Source: Planctomycetia bacterium (lineage in GTDB: Bacteria; Planctomycetota; UBA8108; SXIK01). Taken from it: 42,591 bases of DNA. The position numbers were made by a program, and so were the translations under genes. The first letter of the stretch is position 1. Every line of letters begins with the position of its first letter. The notes under the pieces were generated by a model. It did no database searches and was not told the origin of the DNA. It saw only the letters and a program-made list of their open reading frames with translations. This document shows, in pieces, positions 7,963 through 32,388 of this stretch. Location of the stretch: the NCBI GenBank assembly GCA_005772855.1, contig SXIK01000201.1, positions 1 through 42,591 of the forward strand. Reading direction: 5' to 3'.

Positions 7963-8363
7963 AGAGTGCGCAGCCATGATGGGAACATCCTGGCCAACGC
8001 TCCGTCACCATCGGCGCTGGAGGCGCCCGGCGCTTATCGAGCGCCGAGGAGGGGGAGGGCGCCGCGAGGCGGCCGGTGCGGGGGAGGTCTTCGTCCCCCG
8101 CGAGGAGTATACAAGGTGCGCAGCTATCTCCCTTCCCTCGGCCTCTGCCGGCGGGCCCGGGCGAGGCAACAAGGACTTGTTCGAGAAACCGGTAATCTCG
8201 AGACCTTGTGAGGCCCGGTGGGGGGGAATCGGAGCTGCCATGGTTGAAGCTGTGATTTCAAACATCGTTTCCGGCCCTGTACGCTTTCCCGCGAGGGCGA
8301 TGTTACTCTGAAGTGCTGTCCGCACCGATCCCCGTGGCGAATCTCACACCGCGAACCAAAGTC
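7963..8363. other. Intergenic region waaF / fadI carrying repeat copy A
   Basis: Four hundred bases without a supported gene. The left third is a dispersed hairpin repeat (copy A, 7971-8114). The rest (8115-8363) is GC-rich. The promoter of the fad operon should lie here, but I see no convincing -35/-10 pair. The open frame 7966-8211 is produced by the repeat itself. Confidence 0.5.
7971..8114 (+). repeat. Dispersed hairpin repeat, copy A (full length)
   Basis: A 144-base GC-rich intergenic element shared with 21354-21499 (minus strand) and, in shortened forms, 29031-29110 and 34152-34260. It starts with CAGCCATGAT, has a block CATCCTGGCCAACGCTC, then a 19-nt hairpin CGGCGCT-TATCG-AGCGCCG at 8028-8046. 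A purine-rich GGAGGGGGAGGG tract follows, then a terminal hairpin GCGGGGGA-GGTCTTCG-TCCCCCGC at 8078-8101. It ends GAGTATACAA. It begins 9 bases after the waaF stop in the sense direction, so it would be transcribed as the 3' tail of that operon. Confidence 0.85.
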
Positions 8364-9680
8364 ATGTCAGTAGAAAATCACCCTGTTGCTCCTCACGGCC
8401 GGCCCGTTGTGATATTGGGCGGGCTCCGAACTCCCTGGGCAAAGTCTGGCACGGCGCTCTCCCGCGTCCATGCGGCCGAGCTTGCCCGCATCCCGGCAGA
8501 GGAGCTGATGCTCAGGCTTCAAATTCCACCTGAACAGATCGACGAGGTCATTCTCGGCAATGTCGCGCAGCCGGCCGATGCGGCGAACATCGCCCGCGTT
8601 GTCGCCCTGAGACTTGGTCTTCCGAGCGCAGTTCCTGCCTTCACCGTGCACCGCAACTGCGCCTCGGGTTTGGAGGCGATATCGCAGGCATTCGACAAGA
8701 TTCGTTTTGGTCTCGCCGACCTGGTGCTCGTGGGCGGTACAGAGTCGATGTCGCAGATCCCCGTCCTCTTTCCCGATAGCTACCAGCGCAAGCTCTTGCG
8801 CCTCGCTCGCTCGAAAAACATGCTGCAGAAGGTGGGCGCTGTCTCGGGCTTTCGCCCTGGAGACTTCAAGCCCGTCTTTGGAATTGAGGAAGGCCTCATG
8901 GACCCCGTGTGCAACCAAAGCATGGGGGATACGGCAGAGAACCTGGCGAGAGAATTCGGGATCTCAAGGGATCACCAGGACGCCTTCGCGCTCGAAAGCC
9001 ACAGGCGAACGACGAAGGCCGCCGATGAAGGCTTCTTCAAGGGCGAGATCGTACCCGTCCACGCTGCTCCCGACTACGCCGGGGTGGAGGAGGATATTGG
9101 CCCTCGCAGGAACCAGAGCCTGGAGGCTCTGGCCAGGCTTCGCCCCTTCTTCGACAAGCACCTTGGCACAGTAACCCCGGGAAATTCCTGTCCCGTGACG
9201 GACGGGGCTTGCCTGTTGATCGTTGCGAGCGAGGAGAAGGCTCGTGAGCTCAGGAAGGATCCACTGGGCTGGATACTCTCCTACTCGTACCGTGGGTGCT
9301 CGCCCGACCGCATGGGCCTGGGGCCAGCATTTGCTGCGCCGGAGGCACTTGATCACGCGGGCCTTGGGCTCGAAGAGATGGACCGTATCGAGCTCAACGA
9401 GGCTTTCGCTGTGCAGGTCATCGCGAACCAGATTGCTTTCGAGTCGGACGAGTTTGCTCGCACCGAACTGGGCCGCCCCAGGGCCACGGGCCACCTGGAT
9501 CTCAACCGTCTGAACGTGAACGGGGGCGCGATCGCCCTTGGACATCCCGTTGGTGCCACCGGCGCGAGGCTCGTTCTCACGCTGCTGCGGGAGCTTGAAA
9601 GAAGTGGCCTTCGCAGAGGCCTTGCGACCCTGTGCGTCGGCGGTGGTCAAGGCGCAGCCATGGTAGTGGAGAGACGATGA
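8364..9680 (+). CDS. fadI: Acetyl-CoA acyltransferase (3-ketoacyl-CoA thiolase, FadI type)
   Basis: Catalyses the last step of fatty-acid beta-oxidation, splitting 3-ketoacyl-CoA with CoA into acetyl-CoA and a shortened acyl-CoA. The nucleophile C99 lies in [11 protein letters not shown]. The C-terminal catalytic His is in [12 protein letters not shown] and the second Cys in LCVGGGQGA. The long loop ([19 protein letters not shown]..., [16 protein letters not shown]) is of the FadI/trifunctional type rather than PhaA. With the ATG at 8364 the protein has 438 residues. The frame is open to a GTG at 8313, but homology begins after 8364 at [18 protein letters not shown]. Neither start has a strong ribosome site. 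Its TGA overlaps the ATG of fadJ (ATGA), so the complex subunits are probably made in equal amounts. Confidence 0.93.
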
Positions 9681-11941
9681 ACCTGACCGAGCTCAACACA
9701 ATTTCGCGGACCGGGGCCTTCCGGATTGAGGATGAAGGTGACGGCATTGCACGACTTGTTTTCGACTTGCCCGAGGAGAAAGTCAACAAGCTCACGGCCG
9801 CGGTGCTCGAGGATCTCGAAAGGATCCTCGAGGCGATCGCCAGGGACTCCACGATCAAGGCGGTGATCATCTGGGGCGGCAAGGAAGCCTCGGGCACCTT
9901 CATCGCGGGGGCTGACCTGGGTGAAATCCGGTCTGTCACAAGCGCTGCGGACGGCTCGGAGAAGGCCCGACGAGGCCAGCAGATTCTGGGCAAACTCGCC
10001 GCCATGCCGCAAGTGACAATCGCCGCGATCCATGGCAACTGCCTGGGCGGCGGGACGGAGCTTGCGCTGGCGTGCGACCTGCGCGTGGCGTCGCACTCGC
10101 CGAAGACGAGGATCGGCCTGCCCGAGGTACAGCTTGGCATACTGCCTGGATTCGGCGGCACTCAAAGGCTGCCGAGACTCGTGGGTATTCAGCGGGCGCT
10201 GCCCCTGATCCTGAGCGGAAAGCCGCAGACGGTCGCCCAGGCGGCGAGGATCGGACTCGTCGACCGTGTCGTTTACCCGGATCTGCTGCGAAGAGAAGCC
10301 AGGGCGCTCGCCAATCAAGCCCTCTCCAATGGAGGGAAGAGGTACCGTCCAGCGCGAAAGAGGCTGGGCCTTCTCACGCGCCTGCTCGAGCGTTTCCAGT
10401 GGGGGCGATCGATTATCCGCAAGATCTCCCGGAGAAGTATCCGGAAGCTCACGGGCACGCACTACCCGGCTCCCTACAAGGCGCTCGATTCGGTCATTGA
10501 CGGATTTGGCATGAGCCTGGGAGATGGACTCGCCAACGAAGCTTCGCTTGTGGGCGACCTGATCGTGTCCCCGATTGCAAAGAACCTGATGGATCTCTTC
10601 CTGGCGAGCGAGGAGGCGCGGCGTGGCAGGCGGGACGAATCCCAACGGGACTCGTGCGTCATTTCCATGCAAGGTTCTGCGCCAAAGGCGCGCTCGGCCT
10701 GCGGCGGAAAGGGCCGAGTTGCTCTCCTGGGCGCCGGAGTCATGGGCGGAGGCATCGCGGCCCTCCTCGTACAGAAGGGCTATCGCGTCCGCATGAAGGA
10801 CATTACGTCAGAGGCTCTCCAGCTCGGCCTCAAGAAAATTCACGAGCTCCTCGGCGAGCTCCAGCGCAAGAAACGGATCTCGCGCCGGGAAGCCTCGAAC
10901 CACGTGGCAGCCATCTCCGTCACGACGGACACCTGCGGGCTCGAAGCCTGCGACTTCGTGATCGAGGCGGTTGTGGAGAGCATGGAGGTGAAGAAAAAAG
11001 TGCTTCGTGAGGTGGAGGAAAGGGTCTCGTCGAGCACCGTCATTGCCACCAACACCTCGGCGCTGTCGGTCACAGAGATGCAATCAGCGCTGGCGAATCC
11101 AGCACGATTGGTGGGGCTGCACTTCTTCAACCCCGTCGGCAGGATGCCCCTCGTCGAGATCGTGAGAGGCCGAATGAGCTCGGAGGGTGCGCTCCGCGCC
11201 GCCGAGGCGCTGGCCCGGGATCTTGGCAAGGTGCCCGTCCGGGTCGAAGATGGTCCCGGCTTCCTCGTAAACCGCCTCCTGGCACCCTACTTGAACGAGG
11301 CCGTGAGGCTTTTCGAGGAAAGCTATTCTCCTGTGGCCATCGACCGGGCCGCGCGATCCTTCGGAATGCCGATGGGGCCCTTCGAGCTTCTGGATGAGAT
11401 CGGACTCGACGTCGCAGCGAAGGTTGCACACACGCTCCACCAGTCGTTTGGAGTCCGGGCCAAGCCGCCAGAAAGCATGGATCGCCTTGTCGCCGCCCAG
11501 CTGCTGGGAAAGAAGAGCGGAAAGGGGTTTTACCACCACCGGCGGAGCGTGCTTGCGTGGCGCAGCAAACTCACGCTGAACCGTGAAGTCCTTGGAATTG
11601 TCGGCAATGGGGGGAAGGGGTTCCTTCCCGACGTCGAGGCGCTCTGGATGCGGCGGCTTGTTTTTCCGATCATCAACGAAGCTGCAAGGGCCCTCGACGA
11701 GAGGATTGTCGAGAAAGCGTCAAGGGTTGATCTCGCCATGGTCCTGGGGACCGGCTTTGCGCCATTTCGAGGAGGACCACTCCACCATGCTGACGCTGTC
11801 GGACTGAAAGAGGTGGTGGCCTTTCTTGAAGGCACGGGTGAGGAGCGCCACAAACCTTGTGAGCTCCTGGCACGGCTTGCACGCGAGGACGTCAGGTTCC
11901 TCAGCCCGGAGCGTGCGGCAGTGGCAGTGGCGCATGGCTGA
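9677..11941 (+). CDS. fadJ: Bifunctional enoyl-CoA hydratase / 3-hydroxyacyl-CoA dehydrogenase
   Basis: The alpha subunit of the beta-oxidation complex: it hydrates enoyl-CoA and oxidises the 3-hydroxyacyl-CoA with NAD+. Residues 1 to about 230 form a crotonase domain; the two catalytic glutamates lie in GGGTELALACD and GLPEVQLGI. A basic linker with RRSIRKLTGTHYPAPYKAL follows, as in FadB/FadJ. The NAD-binding Rossmann motif GAGVMGGGIA comes next. The dehydrogenase His is in GLHFFNPVGRMPLVE, and duplicated C-terminal domains run to the end. The 754 residues are slightly longer than usual, mainly because of a linker around 315-340. The chosen ATG at 9677 overlaps the fadI stop and fits the domain start. 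The last 8 bases overlap the start of a Ser/Thr kinase gene. Confidence 0.94.
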   Translation: MNLTELNTISRTGAFRIEDEGDGIARLVFDLPEEKVNKLTAAVLEDLERILEAIARDSTIKAVIIWGGKEASGTFIAGADLGEIRSVTSAADGSEKARRGQQILGKLAAMPQVTIAAIHGNCLGGGTELALACDLRVASHSPKTRIGLPEVQLGILPGFGGTQRLPRLVGIQRALPLILSGKPQTVAQAARIGLVDRVVYPDLLRREARALANQALSNGGKRYRPARKRLGLLTRLLERFQWGRSIIRKISRRSIRKLTGTHYPAPYKALDSVIDGFGMSLGDGLANEASLVGDLIVSPIAKNLMDLFLASEEARRGRRDESQRDSCVISMQGSAPKARSACGGKGRVALLGAGVMGGGIAALLVQKGYRVRMKDITSEALQLGLKKIHELLGELQRKKRISRREASNHVAAISVTTDTCGLEACDFVIEAVVESMEVKKKVLREVEERVSSSTVIATNTSALSVTEMQSALANPARLVGLHFFNPVGRMPLVEIVRGRMSSEGALRAAEALARDLGKVPVRVEDGPGFLVNRLLAPYLNEAVRLFEESYSPVAIDRAARSFGMPMGPFELLDEIGLDVAAKVAHTLHQSFGVRAKPPESMDRLVAAQLLGKKSGKGFYHHRRSVLAWRSKLTLNREVLGIVGNGGKGFLPDVEALWMRRLVFPIINEAARALDERIVEKASRVDLAMVLGTGFAPFRGGPLHHADAVGLKEVVAFLEGTGEERHKPCELLARLAREDVRFLSPERAAVAVAHG

Positions 11942-13184
11942 GCCAGACCCATCAGAGGCATTGCGCGCCTGCGATGCCTCTGGTCAGCTGAACAGCTCCG
12001 GGGCTGCCCTTTGCTCCGCCTGTTCGAAGGCAACAGGAGTCCCCCAGACGCCGACTCTACCCTTCGAGGATCCGAGGCAGCTTCTCGGAAGAATCGTCAA
12101 CGGGAAGTATGAGGTTCTCTCGATCCTGGGCGAAGGCGGTATGGGCGTAGTGTACAAGGTGCGCCACCTGATCCTTCAACACAAGAACACCTTTGCTCTG
12201 AAGATTCTCCATCCCCGCCTTTGTGCCCAGGTTGATTTCCAGACCCGGTTCTTGCGGGAAGTGGAAATCGCCATGGAGCTTACCCACGAGAACATCATCC
12301 AGATACGTGATTTCGGGCTCACGGAGCAAAACCTGCTCTTCTACACCATGGATTTTTTCTCGGGGGAGAGCCTCAAGAGCTTGCTCGAACGCGAGAGGGT
12401 GATCGCACCGACTCGGGTCATCCGTATAGCGAAGCAAATCCTCCTCGCTCTCTCGGAGGCGCACAAGTCCGGGATTATCCACCGGGACTTGAAACCCGAC
12501 AATGTGCTCATTGAGAGGATCGACGAGCAGAATGACAGTGTCCGTATCCTTGATTTTGGAATCGCCAAGGTGCTGGTGGGGGACTCGGAGATGGAGGAGA
12601 AGAGTCTGACTCAAGGCAGTGTCATCGGTACGCCCAGGTACATGTCGCCGGAGCAAGCCTCGGGCGAAAGCATCGACGCTCGCTCTGACCTCTACGCGTT
12701 CGGTTGCATGCTCTACGAGATGCTCACGGGGCACCCTCCGTTTACGGGGTTGACTTCAAGGTCCATCCTCGTGGCGCACCTGACCGTTCCGCCGCCTCCG
12801 TTCGAAAAGCTGAAAACCGGGCTCAATATCCCGCTCGCTCTAGAAAAACTGGTCTTCTTCCTGCTTTCAAAGAGCCAGGAGAATCGGCCCGATTCGGCAG
12901 AGGCGGTGATAGATCTTCTCGAAGGCAGGAAGGTCTCGACGCCCAGGGCGGTGGAGACGAAACCGACCCAGCAGAAGAAGCCCAGGTGGTTCCTGCCGGC
13001 CGGGGCCCTGGCATTCACCCTTCTTGCCTTCGGAATTTTCACCTGGCCCACCTCTCGTCGGCATGGGCAGGCGGAGGCTACCACCGAGTGCAAGTTGAGG
13101 TGCAACGTGTGTGGAGCCGTTTACTTAAAAGGGGCCAAGGTGGGTGGCATGTGCCACGGCGAGCCACTCCTGGAGCAGGAATGA
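11934..13184 (+). CDS. Membrane Ser/Thr protein kinase with terminal cysteine motifs
   Basis: A Hanks-type kinase that would phosphorylate Ser/Thr residues of cytoplasmic targets. The N-terminal 35 residues carry a degenerate zinc-ribbon-like Cys pattern (C13, then C27 and C30 in CSAC). The kinase domain (about 58-330) has the Gly loop LGEGGMGVVY (65-74), K90 in FALKIL, HRDLKPDN (183-190), DFG (207-209) and SPE (238-240); all catalytic residues are intact. One transmembrane helix spans about 352-371. The short outer tail holds four cysteines (386, 390, 393, 407) in a CxxxCxxC...C arrangement that could bind metal or sense redox. Its ATG at 11934 lies inside the last codons of fadJ, so it is translationally coupled to the beta-oxidation genes. 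Control of fatty-acid use is an inference from that context only. Confidence 0.9.
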   Translation: MAEPDPSEALRACDASGQLNSSGAALCSACSKATGVPQTPTLPFEDPRQLLGRIVNGKYEVLSILGEGGMGVVYKVRHLILQHKNTFALKILHPRLCAQVDFQTRFLREVEIAMELTHENIIQIRDFGLTEQNLLFYTMDFFSGESLKSLLERERVIAPTRVIRIAKQILLALSEAHKSGIIHRDLKPDNVLIERIDEQNDSVRILDFGIAKVLVGDSEMEEKSLTQGSVIGTPRYMSPEQASGESIDARSDLYAFGCMLYEMLTGHPPFTGLTSRSILVAHLTVPPPPFEKLKTGLNIPLALEKLVFFLLSKSQENRPDSAEAVIDLLEGRKVSTPRAVETKPTQQKKPRWFLPAGALAFTLLAFGIFTWPTSRRHGQAEATTECKLRCNVCGAVYLKGAKVGGMCHGEPLLEQE

Positions 13185-13202: not shown

Positions 13203-15026
13203 CTACTGTGGGGGGCTCAGGGCTTCGCGGATCACGTTTGCCGCCAGTTCGTGTCCCAGCGGCGTCCAGTGGTTGTCGAGTGCCCAGTAAAGCTGGGCAC
13301 CCTCGCTGGCGGCGATCTGGAGCGCGGGCGTGAGGTCGACGCTGGCAATCCCGCGCTTGCCAAGCGCTTCGAGAATGCTTTGTCGCTGGCAGTCGATGTT
13401 CTGGAGCAGATTCTCCGCCCGGAGCGGCCGTGTGTGGGATCGGGTCAGAAGGAACTCCCCTTGCCTGGAAAGCTCGGGCTCGAAAGCCTTGCCCAGCTTG
13501 CTTGCCACGAGCTTGGGGTCCAGGAGCGGGATGTAACAGTGTTCCTTGGTTGGGAAATAGGCGACGAGAAGTCGTATGCCGTCTTCTTGGCATGCAGCCT
13601 GAAGTCTCTCAACCGCCTTGAGGAACAACTCAAAGCCGTGCAGGCCTTCCACGCCCTCACGCGAGAGCGAAAGGAGTGAGAGGTAGGTATCCGAGAACCC
13701 GAGCTGGACCACTTGATTGGCAAGCTCGGCCGCGAATGGATAGGGAAATTCGGCTTCACCGCCGTCAGGGGCCGCTGGGTGACTGGCGTTCAAGAAGTTC
13801 GCGAGTACGTGACGCGTCAGGTGCGTTGAAACGTGCCGATCGACGATCGGAAGCTTCAACCTCGCGCCTTCCCTCCAGCCAAGTCCAATCTGTTTCCGGC
13901 GTGCGTAGCCCTCGGCATCGAGGAGGTCATTGCCCTCGTAGTAGCCCAGCACGATTTGGCGGGGACGTCTTGGCCTGCCGAAGCGAAGGATTGCCTCGAC
14001 CTCGTTCTGGGGGCCATAGCCTTGAAGGCCCAGGTTGAGCACCGGGGTGCCCAGACGCGCTGAAAGGCGCGAGGGCCATGGACTTGGCTCGACCGAGTGC
14101 GATGTGAAGGAGTCTCCGGAAACGACGATGTCGTAGTGATCGAGGAGCGGTTCGGCGTTTCGGTAGCCCAACGAGTCTGCACGAAAGCTCGCCTGGCTCA
14201 AGATCCGATGGCTCTCGGGGGGCGGGGAAGGCACAAGTCCCCTGAAGGTGTCGTACTGGTAGGTCGCCGATTCCCTGAGCACCTGCGAGAACTGCGTCCG
14301 TGGTCTGTACCGATAGCCCACCGTGATCTCGTCGTCGAACTCGAAGAAGTTAAAGAATACATCGCCCTTCTCGGGCAGGCGTTCGATCACGGCCTCCGGG
14401 AGCAGGCCTGGGTTCGCTCGAAGAGCCAGCTCGAGAGCTACAACAAGTCCACACGTTGTGACCAGGCAGAGAATGAACTTTGCAATGGCGCCAGCTCGTG
14501 GACGTGCACGGGGTCGAGCTGTGAAGAGTAGCCAAAACGACCCGCAGATAACGGCGAGCAGCCCGCCCACGTGCAAGCTCCAGGAGTGTCCGAAATATCC
14601 TTTGCTGATCATCAGAAGCGACAGCCCGAAGCTGACCCACAGGGTTGCCAGCGCCCCCACAAGCAAGGCCCGCTGGCGCAGCAATCGCCCCATGGATTTC
14701 TCGAAACGTTCGAGCCACATCCGCGGCAGGAGACGCGGGCTCATCGCGAGTGCGATCGCTGTGATGGTCAAGCCCGCATGGGCTACAAGAAAGCCTGCAT
14801 AAGAGAGGGAGTACAACCCCAGCACAACGGGAGATCTGCTCTCATAAGCCCAGAGGCAGGGAGTGAGTGCTGTGCAGATGAGTGCTGCAATGCACAAGAA
14901 AACGTGGACGCCGTCCCTCGCAAGGTCTCCGGGTGTGTCGCAGTCCCTGGAGCGAGCGTCATGCCCTGTGGTGGATTTGGGTCGTGATTGGCTTTCCAAG
15001 TGATTTGGGTCGTGGAGTCCGAGCAA
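13203..15026 (-). CDS. Membrane protein with SGNH/GDSL hydrolase domain
   Basis: A membrane-anchored SGNH hydrolase-like protein, probably acting on acyl or acetyl esters of a surface polymer; the substrate is unknown. The N-terminal third is hydrophobic, with about five predicted helices (roughly 41-60, 66-93, 120-140, 150-168, 181-200). The SGNH domain follows: nucleophile S306 in VVSGDSFTSHS, block II glycine near NLGLQGYGP, N366 in GYYEGNDLLD, and the C-terminal Asp/His pair in DNHWTPLGHE. The layout resembles O-acetyl-handling proteins of polysaccharide synthesis, but no acyltransferase domain of the MBOAT type is visible nearby. The first possible start is a TTG at 15026 without a good ribosome site, and no internal ATG precedes the first helix, so the start is uncertain. 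It ends 18 bases from the convergent kinase gene. Confidence 0.8.
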   Translation of the reverse strand: MLGLHDPNHLESQSRPKSTTGHDARSRDCDTPGDLARDGVHVFLCIAALICTALTPCLWAYESRSPVVLGLYSLSYAGFLVAHAGLTITAIALAMSPRLLPRMWLERFEKSMGRLLRQRALLVGALATLWVSFGLSLLMISKGYFGHSWSLHVGGLLAVICGSFWLLFTARPRARPRAGAIAKFILCLVTTCGLVVALELALRANPGLLPEAVIERLPEKGDVFFNFFEFDDEITVGYRYRPRTQFSQVLRESATYQYDTFRGLVPSPPPESHRILSQASFRADSLGYRNAEPLLDHYDIVVSGDSFTSHSVEPSPWPSRLSARLGTPVLNLGLQGYGPQNEVEAILRFGRPRRPRQIVLGYYEGNDLLDAEGYARRKQIGLGWREGARLKLPIVDRHVSTHLTRHVLANFLNASHPAAPDGGEAEFPYPFAAELANQVVQLGFSDTYLSLLSLSREGVEGLHGFELFLKAVERLQAACQEDGIRLLVAYFPTKEHCYIPLLDPKLVASKLGKAFEPELSRQGEFLLTRSHTRPLRAENLLQNIDCQRQSILEALGKRGIASVDLTPALQIAASEGAQLYWALDNHWTPLGHELAANVIREALSPPQ

Positions 15027-15169: not shown

Positions 15170-16003
15170 TTAACGAATCCAGCCGATTTCCCGGGCTGTT
15201 TTTTTTCCCACAACACAATCTGTCAGAGTTTCGACATGCCTCTCGGAGGACTCGCTGAGCGGAATTGCGAGCGACATGATCTCGCAGAGGGTTTGAGGGA
15301 ATCGTGGGTTCTTCTCGGGCTCCGCGAATCCGTCAGGGAAGATGCTGCGCTCACCCTCGTACTTGTCGGTGGCGCCGAGAGTGTGGCAGAGCTCGTGCGC
15401 GACCAGGGCCGCGCACCTTCTGAAGTAGTTCGGGCCCACGGCCGAGAAGACGACACCGAGTCGGTCTCGCCGGGACGCAATCGAGTGCTGGCCCGCATAC
15501 TTACCCACGTCGTCCTCCCCGTAGAAGTAAACGAAGATGACGGCGTCATAGTTCTCGGTCACCAGGTTGGCTCGCTGGCCGAGGTCCCGGAAATAGTCCA
15601 GGAATTTTCGCGTGCCTCGCCACCGATCGAGGAAAGGCGCGTCAGCCGTGGGCGGAAGTGGCGGGGCCGCTGTAGCCTGGATGGGGCCTCGAGCGGAAAA
15701 CTGAATGGGCTGCATGGGATGGCCCCTGTGAGTCTCGAACTCCCTTGCGAACCACTTCGCAATGCCCGAGAGGTTGGATTCGAACGCCGGGCCCGTCGAG
15801 AGAAATCGGGCAAAGAATCCACGCAGCACGTCCTCGGCAGGATCAGCACTGGGATCTGAAACGCAGACAATGAGCACGCTCACGGGGCGCTCCCACGCGA
15901 AGACGTGGTTGTCGGCCTGCCACTGGAGCAGCCCCCAGAAGCCGACTCCACCGAGCAGGATCAACAGGGCTGATATGCGGATACTGCGAGCGCGCTGGAT
16001 CAT
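15170..16003 (-). CDS. Exported metallopeptidase-like protein (HExxHxxGxxD)
   Basis: A 277-residue protein with one N-terminal transmembrane or signal segment (about 10-28, ISALLILLGGVGFWGLLQW), probably anchored with its body in the periplasm. The zinc-binding signature HELCHTLGATD (203-213) has two His, the catalytic Glu and an Asp third ligand, as in snapalysin-like metzincins. A downstream CEIMSL around 240-245 would fit a Met-turn. A region YDAVIFVYFYGEDD precedes the motif. This supports a metalloprotease, though the substrate is unknown and the family is not one I can name exactly. An AAGGAG ribosome site stands 10 bases before the ATG. It diverges from aroA and lies 143 bases upstream of the SGNH gene in the same direction, so the two may be co-transcribed. 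Confidence 0.75.
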   Translation of the reverse strand: MIQRARSIRISALLILLGGVGFWGLLQWQADNHVFAWERPVSVLIVCVSDPSADPAEDVLRGFFARFLSTGPAFESNLSGIAKWFAREFETHRGHPMQPIQFSARGPIQATAAPPLPPTADAPFLDRWRGTRKFLDYFRDLGQRANLVTENYDAVIFVYFYGEDDVGKYAGQHSIASRRDRLGVVFSAVGPNYFRRCAALVAHELCHTLGATDKYEGERSIFPDGFAEPEKNPRFPQTLCEIMSLAIPLSESSERHVETLTDCVVGKKTAREIGWIR

Positions 16004-16104: not shown

Positions 16105-17493
16105 ATGGCCCTCATGCAGCTCCTACCGCCCACCTTTCCCCCACTTGCCGCGGCCGTTCGTATCCATCCGATAAGCTCGCTCGCAGGTACGGTGCGGCTT
16201 CCAGGCTCGAAGTCGATCACCAACCGGGCGCTTCTCATGGCAGCGCTCGCCGAGGGCTCGAGCACGCTCAGGAACGTACTCGACTGCGATGATTCGCGGT
16301 ACATGATGCAGGCTCTGGAAGCGCTCGGGATCACTTTGCGCCGCAGTGACGCGGACGGCTCGGTCTCCGTGGTTGGCGCCAGCGGACCTCTACCCATCAA
16401 GGAGGCGGAGCTCTTTCTCGGCAACGCAGGAACAGCGCTTCGATTCTTGACCGCAGTCCTTTCGGCATCAGCGATGGGCGGTAAGTACGTTGTCGACGGG
16501 GACAAGAGGATGCGCGAACGGCCCATTGCGCACCTTGTCAAGGCCATCAGTATGCTCGGGGGCGACGCTGTGGCTCCCACCGGGTGCCCTCCGGTCATCC
16601 TGGGTCCTCGCCCCCTCATGGGGGGCCGGGTGGACATCCCCGGTAGTGTTTCAAGCCAGTTCATCTCGGCGCTACTCATTGCCGCGCCGCTGGCTTCGCG
16701 TCGCGTGGAGGTTCGAGTGACGGGCGAGCTTGTGTCGCGGCCCTATATCGACCTCACGATCGAAGGCATGCGGGAGTTTGGTGCCAAGGCGTTTGTGGAC
16801 GACCGGCGCCATGACGGTGAGCCGGTCTTCGAGGTGCCACCTGGCCGAACCTACAAGGGTAGAGACTATTTTGTCGAGGGTGATGCCTCGGCGGCGAGCT
16901 ATTTCTACGCCGTGGCGGCGATCACGGGCGGTACGCTCAGGGTCGAGGGCGTCGGCAAGGAGTCGCACCAGGGTGATGCTCGCTGCGCCGATGTGCTGGC
17001 CGCCATGGGTTGCCGAGTCACGAAGGAGCCTGACGCGATCACCGTGACGGGGGGGCTGCTCAAGAAGGTCGACTGGAATTGCTCCGACATTCCGGATGTC
17101 GTGCCGACGCTCGCCGTCGTCGCGCTTTTCGCGCATGGGAAAACGCGCCTGCGTGGCATTGCGCACCTGCGACACAAGGAGAGCGACCGTATCGCCGCGA
17201 TCGCAACGGAGCTTCGCAAGCTTGGCGGCAATGTGAAGGAGCTTCCCGACGGGCTCGATATCGAAGGCACCCTGGGAGCCGCGCCGAGCAGCCTTCACGA
17301 GGCCGTCATCAACTCCTGGGACGACCACCGGATCGTGATGGCACTGTCCGTGGCGGCTCTCGCGGTGCCAGGAATCGTCATCGAAAAGCCACAGGTGGTG
17401 ACCAAGTCCTTCCCGACTTTTTTCGAGGTCCTGGGGTCGCTTGGGGCTCGCGTCGAGTTCATCGATCAGCAAGGCCGCGAGGTGGCATCTTGA
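16105..17493 (+). CDS. aroA: 3-phosphoshikimate 1-carboxyvinyltransferase (EPSP synthase)
   Basis: Transfers the enolpyruvyl group of PEP to shikimate 3-phosphate, the sixth step of the shikimate pathway to aromatic amino acids. Visible family motifs are LPGSKSITNRALLMAALA (about 32-49), LGNAGTALRFLTAV, the DGDKRMRERPIAHL loop, VEGDASAASYFYAVAA, HLRHKESDRI, and the C-terminal WDDHRIVMALSVAALA. At 462 residues it is a little long because of about 20 extra N-terminal residues. A second in-frame ATG lies three codons downstream. The start follows the promoter at 16049-16076 by about 30 bases. The LGNAGTA form of the PEP-binding loop is the ordinary kind. Its TGA overlaps a TTG that starts mnmG. 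Confidence 0.95.
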   Translation: MALMQLLPPTFPPLAAAVRIHPISSLAGTVRLPGSKSITNRALLMAALAEGSSTLRNVLDCDDSRYMMQALEALGITLRRSDADGSVSVVGASGPLPIKEAELFLGNAGTALRFLTAVLSASAMGGKYVVDGDKRMRERPIAHLVKAISMLGGDAVAPTGCPPVILGPRPLMGGRVDIPGSVSSQFISALLIAAPLASRRVEVRVTGELVSRPYIDLTIEGMREFGAKAFVDDRRHDGEPVFEVPPGRTYKGRDYFVEGDASAASYFYAVAAITGGTLRVEGVGKESHQGDARCADVLAAMGCRVTKEPDAITVTGGLLKKVDWNCSDIPDVVPTLAVVALFAHGKTRLRGIAHLRHKESDRIAAIATELRKLGGNVKELPDGLDIEGTLGAAPSSLHEAVINSWDDHRIVMALSVAALAVPGIVIEKPQVVTKSFPTFFEVLGSLGARVEFIDQQGREVAS

Positions 17494-29140: not shown

Positions 29141-30514
29141 TCAGCGCCGAACTTCGCCCGGGGTCGCAGCCTGCCAGAGCTTGATCTCTCCCCTCGTTCG
29201 ATCCTCGGAGATTCCACCGCTCACGAGCGTCTGCCCGTCCGGCGAAAATCCAAGCGCCAGGACTCCGCCCTTCTGGGCACGCAGACTCAGGCACTCGAGC
29301 AGCTCGAAGGGAGCGGCGCCATCCATGAAGTCCCAGAGCTTCACCTCCCCGCCCTCGCTGCCGGAGGCAAGGCGTCGGCCGTCGGGAGTGAATGTCAGGG
29401 CCCGGATGGGACTTCCAGGGGTCCGCGGCGACTCGAGCTGCCCTGCAGTCAGGGTGGTGCCCCGGGAGGTATCGCGCAGATGCCAGATGGCCAGCTCGCC
29501 CAGCAAGGATCCCGTGACAAGCACGTTGGAGTCTGGCGAGAACGCCATGGCGGTCACCCCGTGCTCGCCGCAGTGAAGCGTTGCTCGTGGATCCCCTGTC
29601 GCAGGGTCGATCCACAGTGCCTTCCGACAATCCGTGAGCGAAGCTCCTACCGCGAGGGTCTCCCCGTCCGGAGCGAACTTGAGGAGCGTCGCTTCCATCT
29701 TGGTGTCGATCGACCGGGTCTCTTTCCACTCCTCGCTTTCGGGACGGCCGACGAGGCGCCAGATCTTCACGTTCCCCTCGGCCCCCGCAGTAGCAAGGCA
29801 TCTTGAATCGTCACTGAACGCTACCGCACTGACTTCCTGGTGATGCACCCCAATCTGTAGCCCATCGGTGGTGGATGCAGCCCTGGGGGGCAAAGCCCCG
29901 GCAAGTTTCCACACCGTCACGGTGACCCCCGAGTGTCCGCTTCGAGCTGCTGCCCAGCGAGCGTCCGGGGACAGGGAACCAACACCGTGATGTCCCCACG
30001 CCCAAGAGAGGTGATGACGTGGTGCGGCCTCGAGTCCCAGTGAGCCCGGTGCCATGGAGAAGATTCTCATGTCGAAGTCTTTCCCAACCGCAACGAGACG
30101 CTTCCCGTCCTGCGAGAATCTAACAGCGACGATGGCGCCGGTCGCGGTTCCAGGGCTCGCGGGGATATTCAAGGACTGGGGCGAGGCGAGATTCGTCGAG
30201 TTCCAGACGGATATCCCGTCCCCCGAGTCCGCCACATGGCAGAGTCGGGAGAGGAGATGCCACTCGAAGCCGCGCAAGTCGGGCTCTCCTGGTTGAGGCA
30301 TGAGGTCCTGAAGGAGCCTTCTGGCCTGCCCGACCTCCAGCTTCTCGTCGCTTGCCCGCGCCAGGCTCAGCTTCAAGCCATAGAGGAGCCGCTGATTCGA
30401 TAGCTTGTGAGCCTCCAGGTCGGAAGTCACTTTGAGCAACGCTTGGTAATGGCGAAGCGTCCCTCCGACGTGTTGGTGCCGCAAGGCCAGGCAAAGACCT
30501 ACCAGCACCAGCAC
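29141..30514 (-). CDS. WD40 propeller portion of the kinase fusion
   Basis: The 3' segment of the broken fusion gene, 457 codons. It begins inside the transmembrane helix (LVLVGLCLALRH). A helical linker (KLEVGQARRLLQDLMPQPGEPDLRGFEWHLLSR is family-typical) follows, then seven WD40 repeats ending in forms such as VKIWRL, LAIWHL, VKLWDF and IKLWQ. That is enough for a single seven-bladed propeller. As an isolated reading frame it has no own ribosome site, so separate expression is doubtful. Confidence 0.8.
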   Translation of the reverse strand: MLVLVGLCLALRHQHVGGTLRHYQALLKVTSDLEAHKLSNQRLLYGLKLSLARASDEKLEVGQARRLLQDLMPQPGEPDLRGFEWHLLSRLCHVADSGDGISVWNSTNLASPQSLNIPASPGTATGAIVAVRFSQDGKRLVAVGKDFDMRIFSMAPGSLGLEAAPRHHLSWAWGHHGVGSLSPDARWAAARSGHSGVTVTVWKLAGALPPRAASTTDGLQIGVHHQEVSAVAFSDDSRCLATAGAEGNVKIWRLVGRPESEEWKETRSIDTKMEATLLKFAPDGETLAVGASLTDCRKALWIDPATGDPRATLHCGEHGVTAMAFSPDSNVLVTGSLLGELAIWHLRDTSRGTTLTAGQLESPRTPGSPIRALTFTPDGRRLASGSEGGEVKLWDFMDGAAPFELLECLSLRAQKGGVLALGFSPDGQTLVSGGISEDRTRGEIKLWQAATPGEVRR

Positions 30515-31272
30515 TCCCCCCAGAAGCAGGGTGATCCCGGGCCGCGCTTCGCCAGCTTGGCCGCGCGCTCAAAGGCACTGGCAGGCCGTGCGCGAATTGG
30601 CTTTCCGTCGAGGTATCGGCGCAGATCCTCGGCGAGGTCCAGCGCCGACTTGTAACGCTGCCTGGGGTCCTTCGAGAGGCCCTTCAGGCAGATGGTTCGG
30701 AGGTCTGTGGCGCTGGTCAGCACGGCGGCCTGTGGGAACCTTGCCTCGTCCTCGCAAGCGCGTCGAAACTCACGCAGGGGCGTGAGGTCCTTGAATGGCG
30801 GCGAGCCGCAGAGAAGCTCGTAGAGCACGATGGACAGGCTGTAGACGTCGCATAGTACTGTCAACGCATTGGGTTTTCCGCCGAGGAGCTCCGGGGCCAC
30901 GTAGCTACTCGTGCCGAGAATGGAGCCCGTCACGGTTACGCGCTCTTGCCTTGTGAGAATTCTTGCCAGCCCAAAGTCAGTCACGTGAGGCTCGCCTGCC
31001 GAGTCGATCAAGATGTTGGCTGGCTTCAAGTCCCGGTGAAGGACGCCTCGTTCGTGCGCGTGATGGACCGCTCGCGCCAATTTCTCCATGAGGCTGGCTG
31101 CTTTTCGAGGCTTGCCCATGAAGGCTTGCACGTGATGAGCCAGAGTGGAGCCATCAATCAGTGGCATCGTGAAGAAGGGCTGGCCATCCTGCCACCCAAT
31201 CGAATAGATCGGCACAATGTTGGGATGATGCAGAAGCGCGGCGGCCTCGGCGCCAAGCTTGAACCGGGTCAC
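30499..31272 (-). CDS. Kinase catalytic portion of the fusion
   Basis: The middle segment, 257 codons, opening at a GTG. It holds the alphaC region (FKLGAEAAALLHHPNIV), HRDLKPAN, VTDFGLA, the activation segment with TSSYVAPE, and the helical C lobe to YKSALDLAEDLRRYLDG. The Gly loop and the ATP-binding lysine are in the previous frame, so this piece alone cannot be an active kinase. The frame ends in junk codons (CFWGECWCW) just after the second indel. Confidence 0.75.
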   Translation of the reverse strand: MTRFKLGAEAAALLHHPNIVPIYSIGWQDGQPFFTMPLIDGSTLAHHVQAFMGKPRKAASLMEKLARAVHHAHERGVLHRDLKPANILIDSAGEPHVTDFGLARILTRQERVTVTGSILGTSSYVAPELLGGKPNALTVLCDVYSLSIVLYELLCGSPPFKDLTPLREFRRACEDEARFPQAAVLTSATDLRTICLKGLSKDPRQRYKSALDLAEDLRRYLDGKPIRARPASAFERAAKLAKRGPGSPCFWGECWCW

Positions 31273-31673
31273 GTCGGGCGGTGAGGCCAGGTAGGGGGAG
31301 GTGAGGACCTTGTGAGGGCCACATCACGCTCGAGCTGATTCTCCCTGGCCCTGTAGACGATTCCCATGCCGCCACGGGCGATCTCCTCGACCAGCTCATA
31401 ATCCCCAAACGGCCGGGGAAAAGTCTGTGAGGTCACTTCGTCCCGATGTGCCGAAACTCCGGCTCTCTCCTCGGCCTCCTTGAGGAGCCTTTGGCCCTCA
31501 AGAAACGCAGTTATCTCGACGCTGAAATCGGCGTTCTGCTTCTTCGGCTCCTCGACGCGGTCGAACTCGGCACGCTCAAGCGACTTGAGCATCTCGACCA
31601 TCAGCGCGTCGAGCGCACGCTCCCTTTCTGCCTCCGGCGACTCGATCGGGCTCTGGCCAGACTCGTCCAACAT
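31269..31673 (-). CDS. N-terminal portion of the kinase fusion
   Basis: The 5' segment, 134 codons with an ATG at 31673. A helical N-terminus (residues 1-80, rich in Glu) precedes the kinase start FGDYELVEEIARGGMGIVYRA with the ATP-binding Gly loop. After ERDVAL the frame departs from homology (TRSSPPPTWPHRPT) and stops. It starts 9 bases after the sigma factor stop. Confidence 0.75.
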   Translation of the reverse strand: MLDESGQSPIESPEAERERALDALMVEMLKSLERAEFDRVEEPKKQNADFSVEITAFLEGQRLLKEAEERAGVSAHRDEVTSQTFPRPFGDYELVEEIARGGMGIVYRARENQLERDVALTRSSPPPTWPHRPT

Positions 31674-31682
31674 GTTGTCGGC

Positions 31683-32246
31683 TCAGGTCTCTTTCAGCTC
31701 ATTTCCCAGCCTTGCAATCCCGCGCCGGAACAATCCCGCGATGGAAGACTCTGTGCGGCTCATGTGTTTGGCAATGTCCGCAATGCTCCAGTGGTGCCAG
31801 TGTTTGAGCACGACCACCTGCCGGTACTCCGGAGATAAGTTCTCGATGGCACGGACGAGGCGAAGCATGGCTTCCTCCTTCTCGAGGATCTCTGCTGGGA
31901 GGCACGTAGTATCCGTGCGGGGTCCCTGGAGACGAGTCGAGGAGCTCTCCAGCAGCTGGTTGATTGGGACTCTGACGCCTAGCGTGCGTTGCTCCAGAAA
32001 GAACCTCGCGTGCACCGTGGTCAGCGTGTTCCTGAGAATGGCTCGCAGCCAGGCTGCGACCTGCGCCTCACTTTGAGCTCTCAGGCTACCCTGGCCCTCC
32101 ATGGCCCTGAGAAGAACCGTCTGGACAATATCCGAGGCATCCACGCTGCGACTCAAGCGTGGGTCGAGACCTCTCGCGGCAAGCAGGCGCAGAAATGCTC
32201 GAAAGCGAGTGAAGTCACCGGGGGTGTAAGGAGTCGGTTGAGTCAT
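31683..32246 (-). CDS. ECF-type RNA polymerase sigma factor
   Basis: An alternative sigma factor that would direct RNA polymerase to a special promoter set. Sigma region 2 is seen as FRAFLRLLAARGLDPRLSRS...DASDIVQTVLLRAM (about 10-50), with AAWLRAILRNTL in the region 2.3-2.4 part. Region 4 is LSPEYRQVVVLKHWHHWSIADIAKHM followed by the helix-turn-helix SRTESSIAGLFRRGIARL. With the ATG at 32246 the protein has 187 residues. The frame is open to 32330, but homology starts after MTQPTPYTPGD. It lies just upstream of the kinase-WD40 gene, the arrangement known for planctomycete ECF factors partnered with Ser/Thr kinases. That partnership is inferred. No anti-sigma factor gene is adjacent. Confidence 0.88.
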   Translation of the reverse strand: MTQPTPYTPGDFTRFRAFLRLLAARGLDPRLSRSVDASDIVQTVLLRAMEGQGSLRAQSEAQVAAWLRAILRNTLTTVHARFFLEQRTLGVRVPINQLLESSSTRLQGPRTDTTCLPAEILEKEEAMLRLVRAIENLSPEYRQVVVLKHWHHWSIADIAKHMSRTESSIAGLFRRGIARLGNELKET

Positions 32247-32388
32247 ACCGGTGCCACAGAAGCCCTGAGGGGAAAGGAAAAGGCTTGTGCGCGACGGCAT
32301 TATCTGCCCTGGTGGGGAGTTGGGCAACACGCAATACCGGGCACCGGGCGTGGATCATGGCACCCTGCCGGGGGGGAGTGGGGCTAAC

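Follow-up and report, generated by a model that had tools for sequence, protein, structure and literature searches.

Ser/Thr kinases are numerous in bacteria, and substrates are known for few of them. In Myxococcus xanthus the gene pkn4 presumably adjoins pfk. The Ser/Thr kinase Pkn4 of this bacterium phosphorylates 6-phosphofructokinase, according to excerpts of two reports (PMC1262709, PMC6213207). PknG of the actinobacteria controls central metabolism and is encoded in a conserved operon; it has a rubredoxin-like metal domain, and disturbing this domain changes the activity, as described in the excerpt of its report (PMC8546545). Searches of the open-access literature gave no report of a Ser/Thr kinase acting on FadB/FadJ or on beta-oxidation enzymes.

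We analysed a stretch of 42,591 nt from a Planctomycetia bacterium (hereafter the window), in which a gene for a PknB-type Ser/Thr kinase follows fadI and fadJ (Table 1). The results support a kinase that is conserved, is probably co-translated and has a likewise conserved C-terminal tail of the metal/thiol type. As far as the excerpts on Pkn4 go, the likeness is that of a Ser/Thr kinase paired with a central metabolic enzyme; the Pkn4 substrate was proven by experiment and is a glycolytic enzyme, whereas FadI and FadJ of the window are candidate substrates only. The initial annotation had called a signalling kinase translated together with the FadI/FadJ complex unusual, too strong a word given that Pkn4, by the same excerpts, acts on a metabolic enzyme. 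In the PknG excerpt TPRs are described and the catalytic core directly adjoins the metal domain (PMC8546545), whereas the putative knuckle of the window kinase is C-terminal, beyond the membrane segment.

Table 1. Features of the fadI-fadJ-kinase locus and its downstream flank (positions in the window).
Feature	Position	Strand	Basis or remark
fadI, acyl-CoA thiolase, 455 aa from GTG 8313	8313..9680	+	Thiolase_N/C (Pfam); TIGR01930 above cut-off
fadJ, enoyl-CoA hydratase / 3-hydroxyacyl-CoA dehydrogenase, 754 aa	9677..11941	+	ECH_1, 3HCDH_N, 3HCDH (Pfam)
Transmembrane (by hydropathy) PknB-type Ser/Thr kinase, 416 aa	11934..13184	+	Pkinase; nearest solved relative PknB (sequence, fold)
N-tail Cys13/27/30	11970..12023	+	Complete ribbon in 7/14 related kinases; missing from G001
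Kinase catalytic domain, residues 59-324	12108..12905	+	Pfam Pkinase, E 7.1e-50
Activation segment T226-QGSVIG-T233, candidate autophosphorylation sites	12609..12632	+	Between DFG and SPE
Predicted membrane segment, residues 352-371	12987..13046	+	Hydropathy; G001 has one at the matching place
C-tail putative knuckle C386, C390xxC393-x13-C407H408	13089..13181	+	Conservation in G001
AlgX/SGNH-like protein gene, between kinase and aroA	13203..15026	-	PF16822
aroA, ancestral downstream neighbour of fadJ	16105..17493	+	EPSP_synthase (Pfam)

The two beta-oxidation genes form the pair of thiolase and ECH-HCDH protein expected of a FadI/FadJ complex. Among the named models those for FadJ and thiolases scored best, mostly below equivalog cut-offs, and the top NCBIfam model for fadJ was FadJ PRK11154, with a score below its cut-off. 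In a comparison with 12 other genomes, probed through named loci, the FadJ proteins nearest to that of the window came from two Acidobacteriota MAGs (44 and 42%), at most a hint of affinity. An alternative start of fadI is possible at ATG 8364. The stop of fadI and the start of fadJ overlap by 4 nt, as ATGA, at 9677-9680, and the kinase, from its ATG at 11934, shares 8 nt with fadJ, which ends with its stop at 11941; both overlaps, the second placed within the final fadJ codons, had been proposed in the initial annotation and were confirmed. Scanning for promoters and terminators gave nothing informative, with fewer terminators than expected from shuffles. The AlgX/SGNH-like gene is outside the fadI-fadJ-kinase operon and is a later insert, present in one of the ten genomes of the order that were searched. 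Judged by its position, a 277-aa ORF at 15170-16003 (-) probably also arrived later in the window's lineage; by eye it has a zinc-protease-like HELCH motif, and it gave no Pfam match at E 0.01.

Next we compared the gene order with relatives. Among 59 genomes (the window's own, G000, included) the only orthologue of the kinase was found in G001, a genome of another genus in the same family (f1), with 61% identity and directly 3' of fadI-fadJ. In G001 the last base of the fadI stop coincides with base one of fadJ, and the kinase, from its ATG, overlaps fadJ by 38 nt. The contig ends 115 nt past the kinase stop and another contig begins 188 nt before aroA; because these two contig ends share an exact 39-nt sequence, the order fadI-fadJ-kinase-aroA very probably holds in G001 as well. 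Five relatives from the order (G002, G004, G006, G007 and G008) have fadI-fadJ-aroA-mnmG without the kinase, which places the arrival of the kinase in the fadJ-aroA gap at the root of this family. In G003 and G005 fadJ and aroA are separated by about 6.5 and 13 kb, and no kinase was found in the 13-14 kb read around fadJ (in G005 about half of the gap was covered). The gap is empty in f2, holds the kinase in f1 and contains 6.5-13 kb of other genes in G003 and G005; it seems prone to collect inserts.

As order and overlap recur in an independent assembly, they are not an artefact of one assembly, and since two genomes sample the family, the conservation amounts to one event seen twice. The order fadI-fadJ-kinase, which the initial annotation had suggested comparing across relatives, is thus kept in a second genus. 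That annotation would have abandoned its reading if the order were unique to this genome and the cysteines unconserved in orthologues; the order and three of the four C-tail cysteines recur in G001, whereas the N-tail cysteines do not.

The initial annotation described all catalytic residues as intact, and the Gly loop (GEGGMG at 66), ALK with K90, HRDLKPDN at 183, DFG at 207 and SPE at 238 were all found. From these motifs (Gly loop, Lys, HRD, DFG, SPE/APE) the protein is predicted to be a Hanks-type, PknB-like kinase, and by analogy with the PknB family the segment with T226 and T233 may be phosphorylated. Among solved structures M. tuberculosis PknB came closest, by sequence (5e-50) as well as by fold. 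Like PknB and other PASTA-type Hanks kinases, the window kinase has this kinase fold and, by prediction, a single membrane segment after the kinase domain; the PASTA-type kinases carry PASTA repeats, whereas the outer part of the window kinase is a short Cys/His tail. Membership in the PASTA kinases (PknB/StkP) was rejected, as Pfam found no PASTA domain in the kinase and NCBIfam PknB_PASTA_kin scored 280.8 bits against a cut-off of 450. The transmembrane label has hydropathy as its only basis (19 residues starting at residue 352, mean 1.76); the peak is found in both orthologues, and the segment has low pLDDT in the full-length model. With the kinase domain inside, the C-tail would probably lie outside the membrane.

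Searching genome contigs with the kinase sequence gave 21 loci, the best with 40% identity, and no orthologue. When 392 genomes of the phylum were searched at E 1e-80, considering the best four candidates per genome, nothing was retrieved beyond G000, G001 and three genomes of f31; the f31 kinases are 46-47% identical to the window kinase and have long, different C-termini.

Between G000 and G001, dN is well below dS over the kinase domain, and both the kinase domain and the C-tail are under purifying selection. The C-tail is 70.0% identical (30 aa) and the kinase domain 69.9% (279 aa), as compared to 27.8% in the linker and membrane segment preceding the tail (54 aa); the difference between tail and linker gave a Fisher p of 2.4e-4 for this one sequence pair. 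C390, C393, C407 and H408 are kept in G001, and C386 is not. When 13 genomes were searched with the tail, only G000 and G001 gave convincing matches. Among 392 genomes 31 gave a match with E up to 0.05 (at most 19 candidates scored per genome), and the eight weak matches that were read included no kinases. Pfam and NCBIfam searches with the tail gave no match above cut-off. In a PDB sequence search the matches were mostly to rubredoxins, zinc fingers and ribosomal proteins, at their first knuckle; desulforedoxin was not among them.

The best explanation overall, which we hold tentatively, is an operon receptor kinase that has an outer metal/thiol knuckle as input and is made in amounts coupled to FadI/FadJ. 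The gene of this PknB-type kinase would have been inserted between fadJ and aroA in the family ancestor and have joined the fadI-fadJ operon as its third cistron, with a start that overlaps the stop of fadJ. Ribosomes terminating on fadJ may re-initiate at the kinase, and the kinase amount would then follow the beta-oxidation enzymes. The tail, with C390, C393, C407 and H408 and probably outside, could form a small metal- or thiol-binding knuckle that serves as the input; the kinase would autophosphorylate on the activation loop and then phosphorylate cytosolic targets. A kinase as last cistron of a metabolic operon together with a conserved outer tail leads to a specific substrate guess, FadI/FadJ, and the four tail residues to a specific ligand guess, a metal or a disulfide. 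FadI and FadJ are the first substrate candidates, though we regard it as somewhat unlikely that they are the substrates. Family-specific Ser/Thr sites (four in FadJ, three in FadI) were uninformative. The full circuit, in which the co-translated receptor kinase phosphorylates FadI/FadJ and an outside metal or redox signal directly sets fatty-acid breakdown, appears quite unlikely; if it is true, we know of no earlier circuit of this kind for beta-oxidation.

It is also a serious possibility that the kinase acquired the fadIJ promoter by a chance insertion and was kept for signalling of its own, with substrates unrelated to fatty acids. The genome is dense in kinases, with about 45 hits, and further kinases sit after unrelated genes. 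Ten co-directional ORFs upstream of the genome's own kinases, picked by eye from 30 kinase loci, were typed with Pfam: four were sigma factors (sigma-70 or ECF), five matched Ala_racemase_N (YggS-like), TsaE, PAD_porph, HD and a glycosyltransferase, and one had no Pfam match. fadJ occurs at 110 places in 109 of the 392 genomes; every one was read with flanks of roughly 1.5 or 3 kb, in some cases less where the contig stopped short, and in three (G000, G001 and G045) a kinase lies directly 3' of fadJ on the same strand. The kinase of G045 is non-orthologous and starts about 98 nt after fadJ, which leaves two independent events where about 0.7 would be expected; the probability of two or more is 0.16. 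This estimate is rough, as it used loose candidates and 60 kinase counts, among them a surplus entry of 13, for 59 genome sizes. Adjacency of kinase and fadJ is thus within chance across the 110 places, and position alone is no argument for a functional tie. With the insert-prone fadJ-aroA gap added, these observations agree with a chance insertion; against it speaks the tight overlap, which has survived about 39% protein divergence across two genera. Control of fatty-acid breakdown, as suggested in the initial annotation, was left unsupported, since kinases commonly adjoin unrelated genes in this genome and the adjacency to fadJ is within chance. If the link to FadI/FadJ is false, the locus is one more case of kinases settling freely in operons.

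The G045 locus (L176) has fadI-fadJ-kinase on the minus strand and belongs to a distant family, f23. Seven f23 genomes have a fadJ place, and G045 is the one in which a kinase was seen behind fadJ (the others being G140, G155, G169, G183, G196 and G208; some contigs end nearby).

For the proposed input, we read the C-tail as a zinc-ribbon-type knuckle that may have lost the third ligand and kept C, C, C and H. The two CxxC pairs of a four-Cys zinc ribbon are not both present, as Gly occupies the third position in G000 and G001 alike. If the tail is outside the membrane, as the topology implies, it could also form a disulfide. A c-type haem site was rejected by eye, as the tail has no CxxCH. 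The full-length AlphaFold model did not place the tail confidently; modelled alone, the tail formed a three-strand knuckle (pLDDT 78.6). In profile comparisons it matched the double-CxxC ribbons of two relatives without gaps at prob 91.5, a value biased upward because these ribbons had been found with the tail as query, one rubredoxin at prob 71.3 and the kinases' N-ribbons at 33.0. Shuffles with the ligands fixed reached the real zinc-ribbon score in 1/300 cases, and equally in 1/300 with Gly fixed too.

If the tail held an iron centre of the desulforedoxin type (CxxC with a neighbouring C-H) instead of a zinc ribbon, the kinase would be a periplasmic iron/superoxide sensor, which we consider very improbable. 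Foldseek placed desulforedoxin (1dxg) first and desulfoferrodoxin second for the tail model, at an E of 0.63 that is not significant. The tail profile reached prob 51.8 and E 1.5e-4 (as calculated for a single comparison) against the Desulfoferrod_N domains of relatives, whereas G000 gave no PF06397 (Desulfoferrod_N) match at E 0.01 and the double-CxxC ribbons, though picked by the tail search, fitted better. Ligand-fixed shuffles attained the real desulforedoxin score in 2/300 cases, a number that rose to 16/300 when Gly was fixed as well. Desulforedoxin ligands are CxxC and CC, and the tail has CH instead of CC.

The kinase has cysteines at positions 13, 27 and 30 of the N-tail, 386, 390, 393 and 407 of the C-tail, and 97 and 258 of the kinase domain; all seven terminal cysteines counted in the initial annotation, three and four, are present. 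The N-tail is 38.7% identical between G000 and G001, and its cysteines were not found in the G001 orthologue. Seven of 14 related kinases (an own paralogue included) carry a complete CxxC..CxxC ribbon N-terminal to the kinase domain, so the three N-tail cysteines look like a ribbon minus one ligand, possibly the remnant of a decaying zinc ribbon. That the kinase itself is a decaying gene or an assembly artefact, as the draft assembly of 244 contigs and the degenerate N-tail ribbon might suggest, is hardly credible: the motifs are intact, the kinase domain has a dN far lower than its dS, and the independent G001 assembly shows a matching arrangement.

The zinc-ribbon Ser/Thr kinases of the phylum, such as the own paralogue L104, share about 38-46% identity with the window kinase; by the pattern used they have the ribbon at the N terminus in 7/14 and at the C terminus in 0/14. 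On the stretches read around these 14 kinases fadJ was not found. The paralogue L104 (also L002; G000:C96, 9267-11198) has a full N-terminal zinc ribbon. By eye, the own kinases L002, L015, L022 and L028 lie behind genes with repeat ends of the dockerin/EF-hand type. Elsewhere in the window, at 29141-32330 (-), a sigma-factor-like gene (31683-32330) is followed by a kinase ORF (30499-31272) and a WD40-like ORF (29141-30514), with domains named by eye. The last two overlap by 16 nt in different frames and are possibly one kinase-WD40 gene split by a frameshift or a sequencing error.
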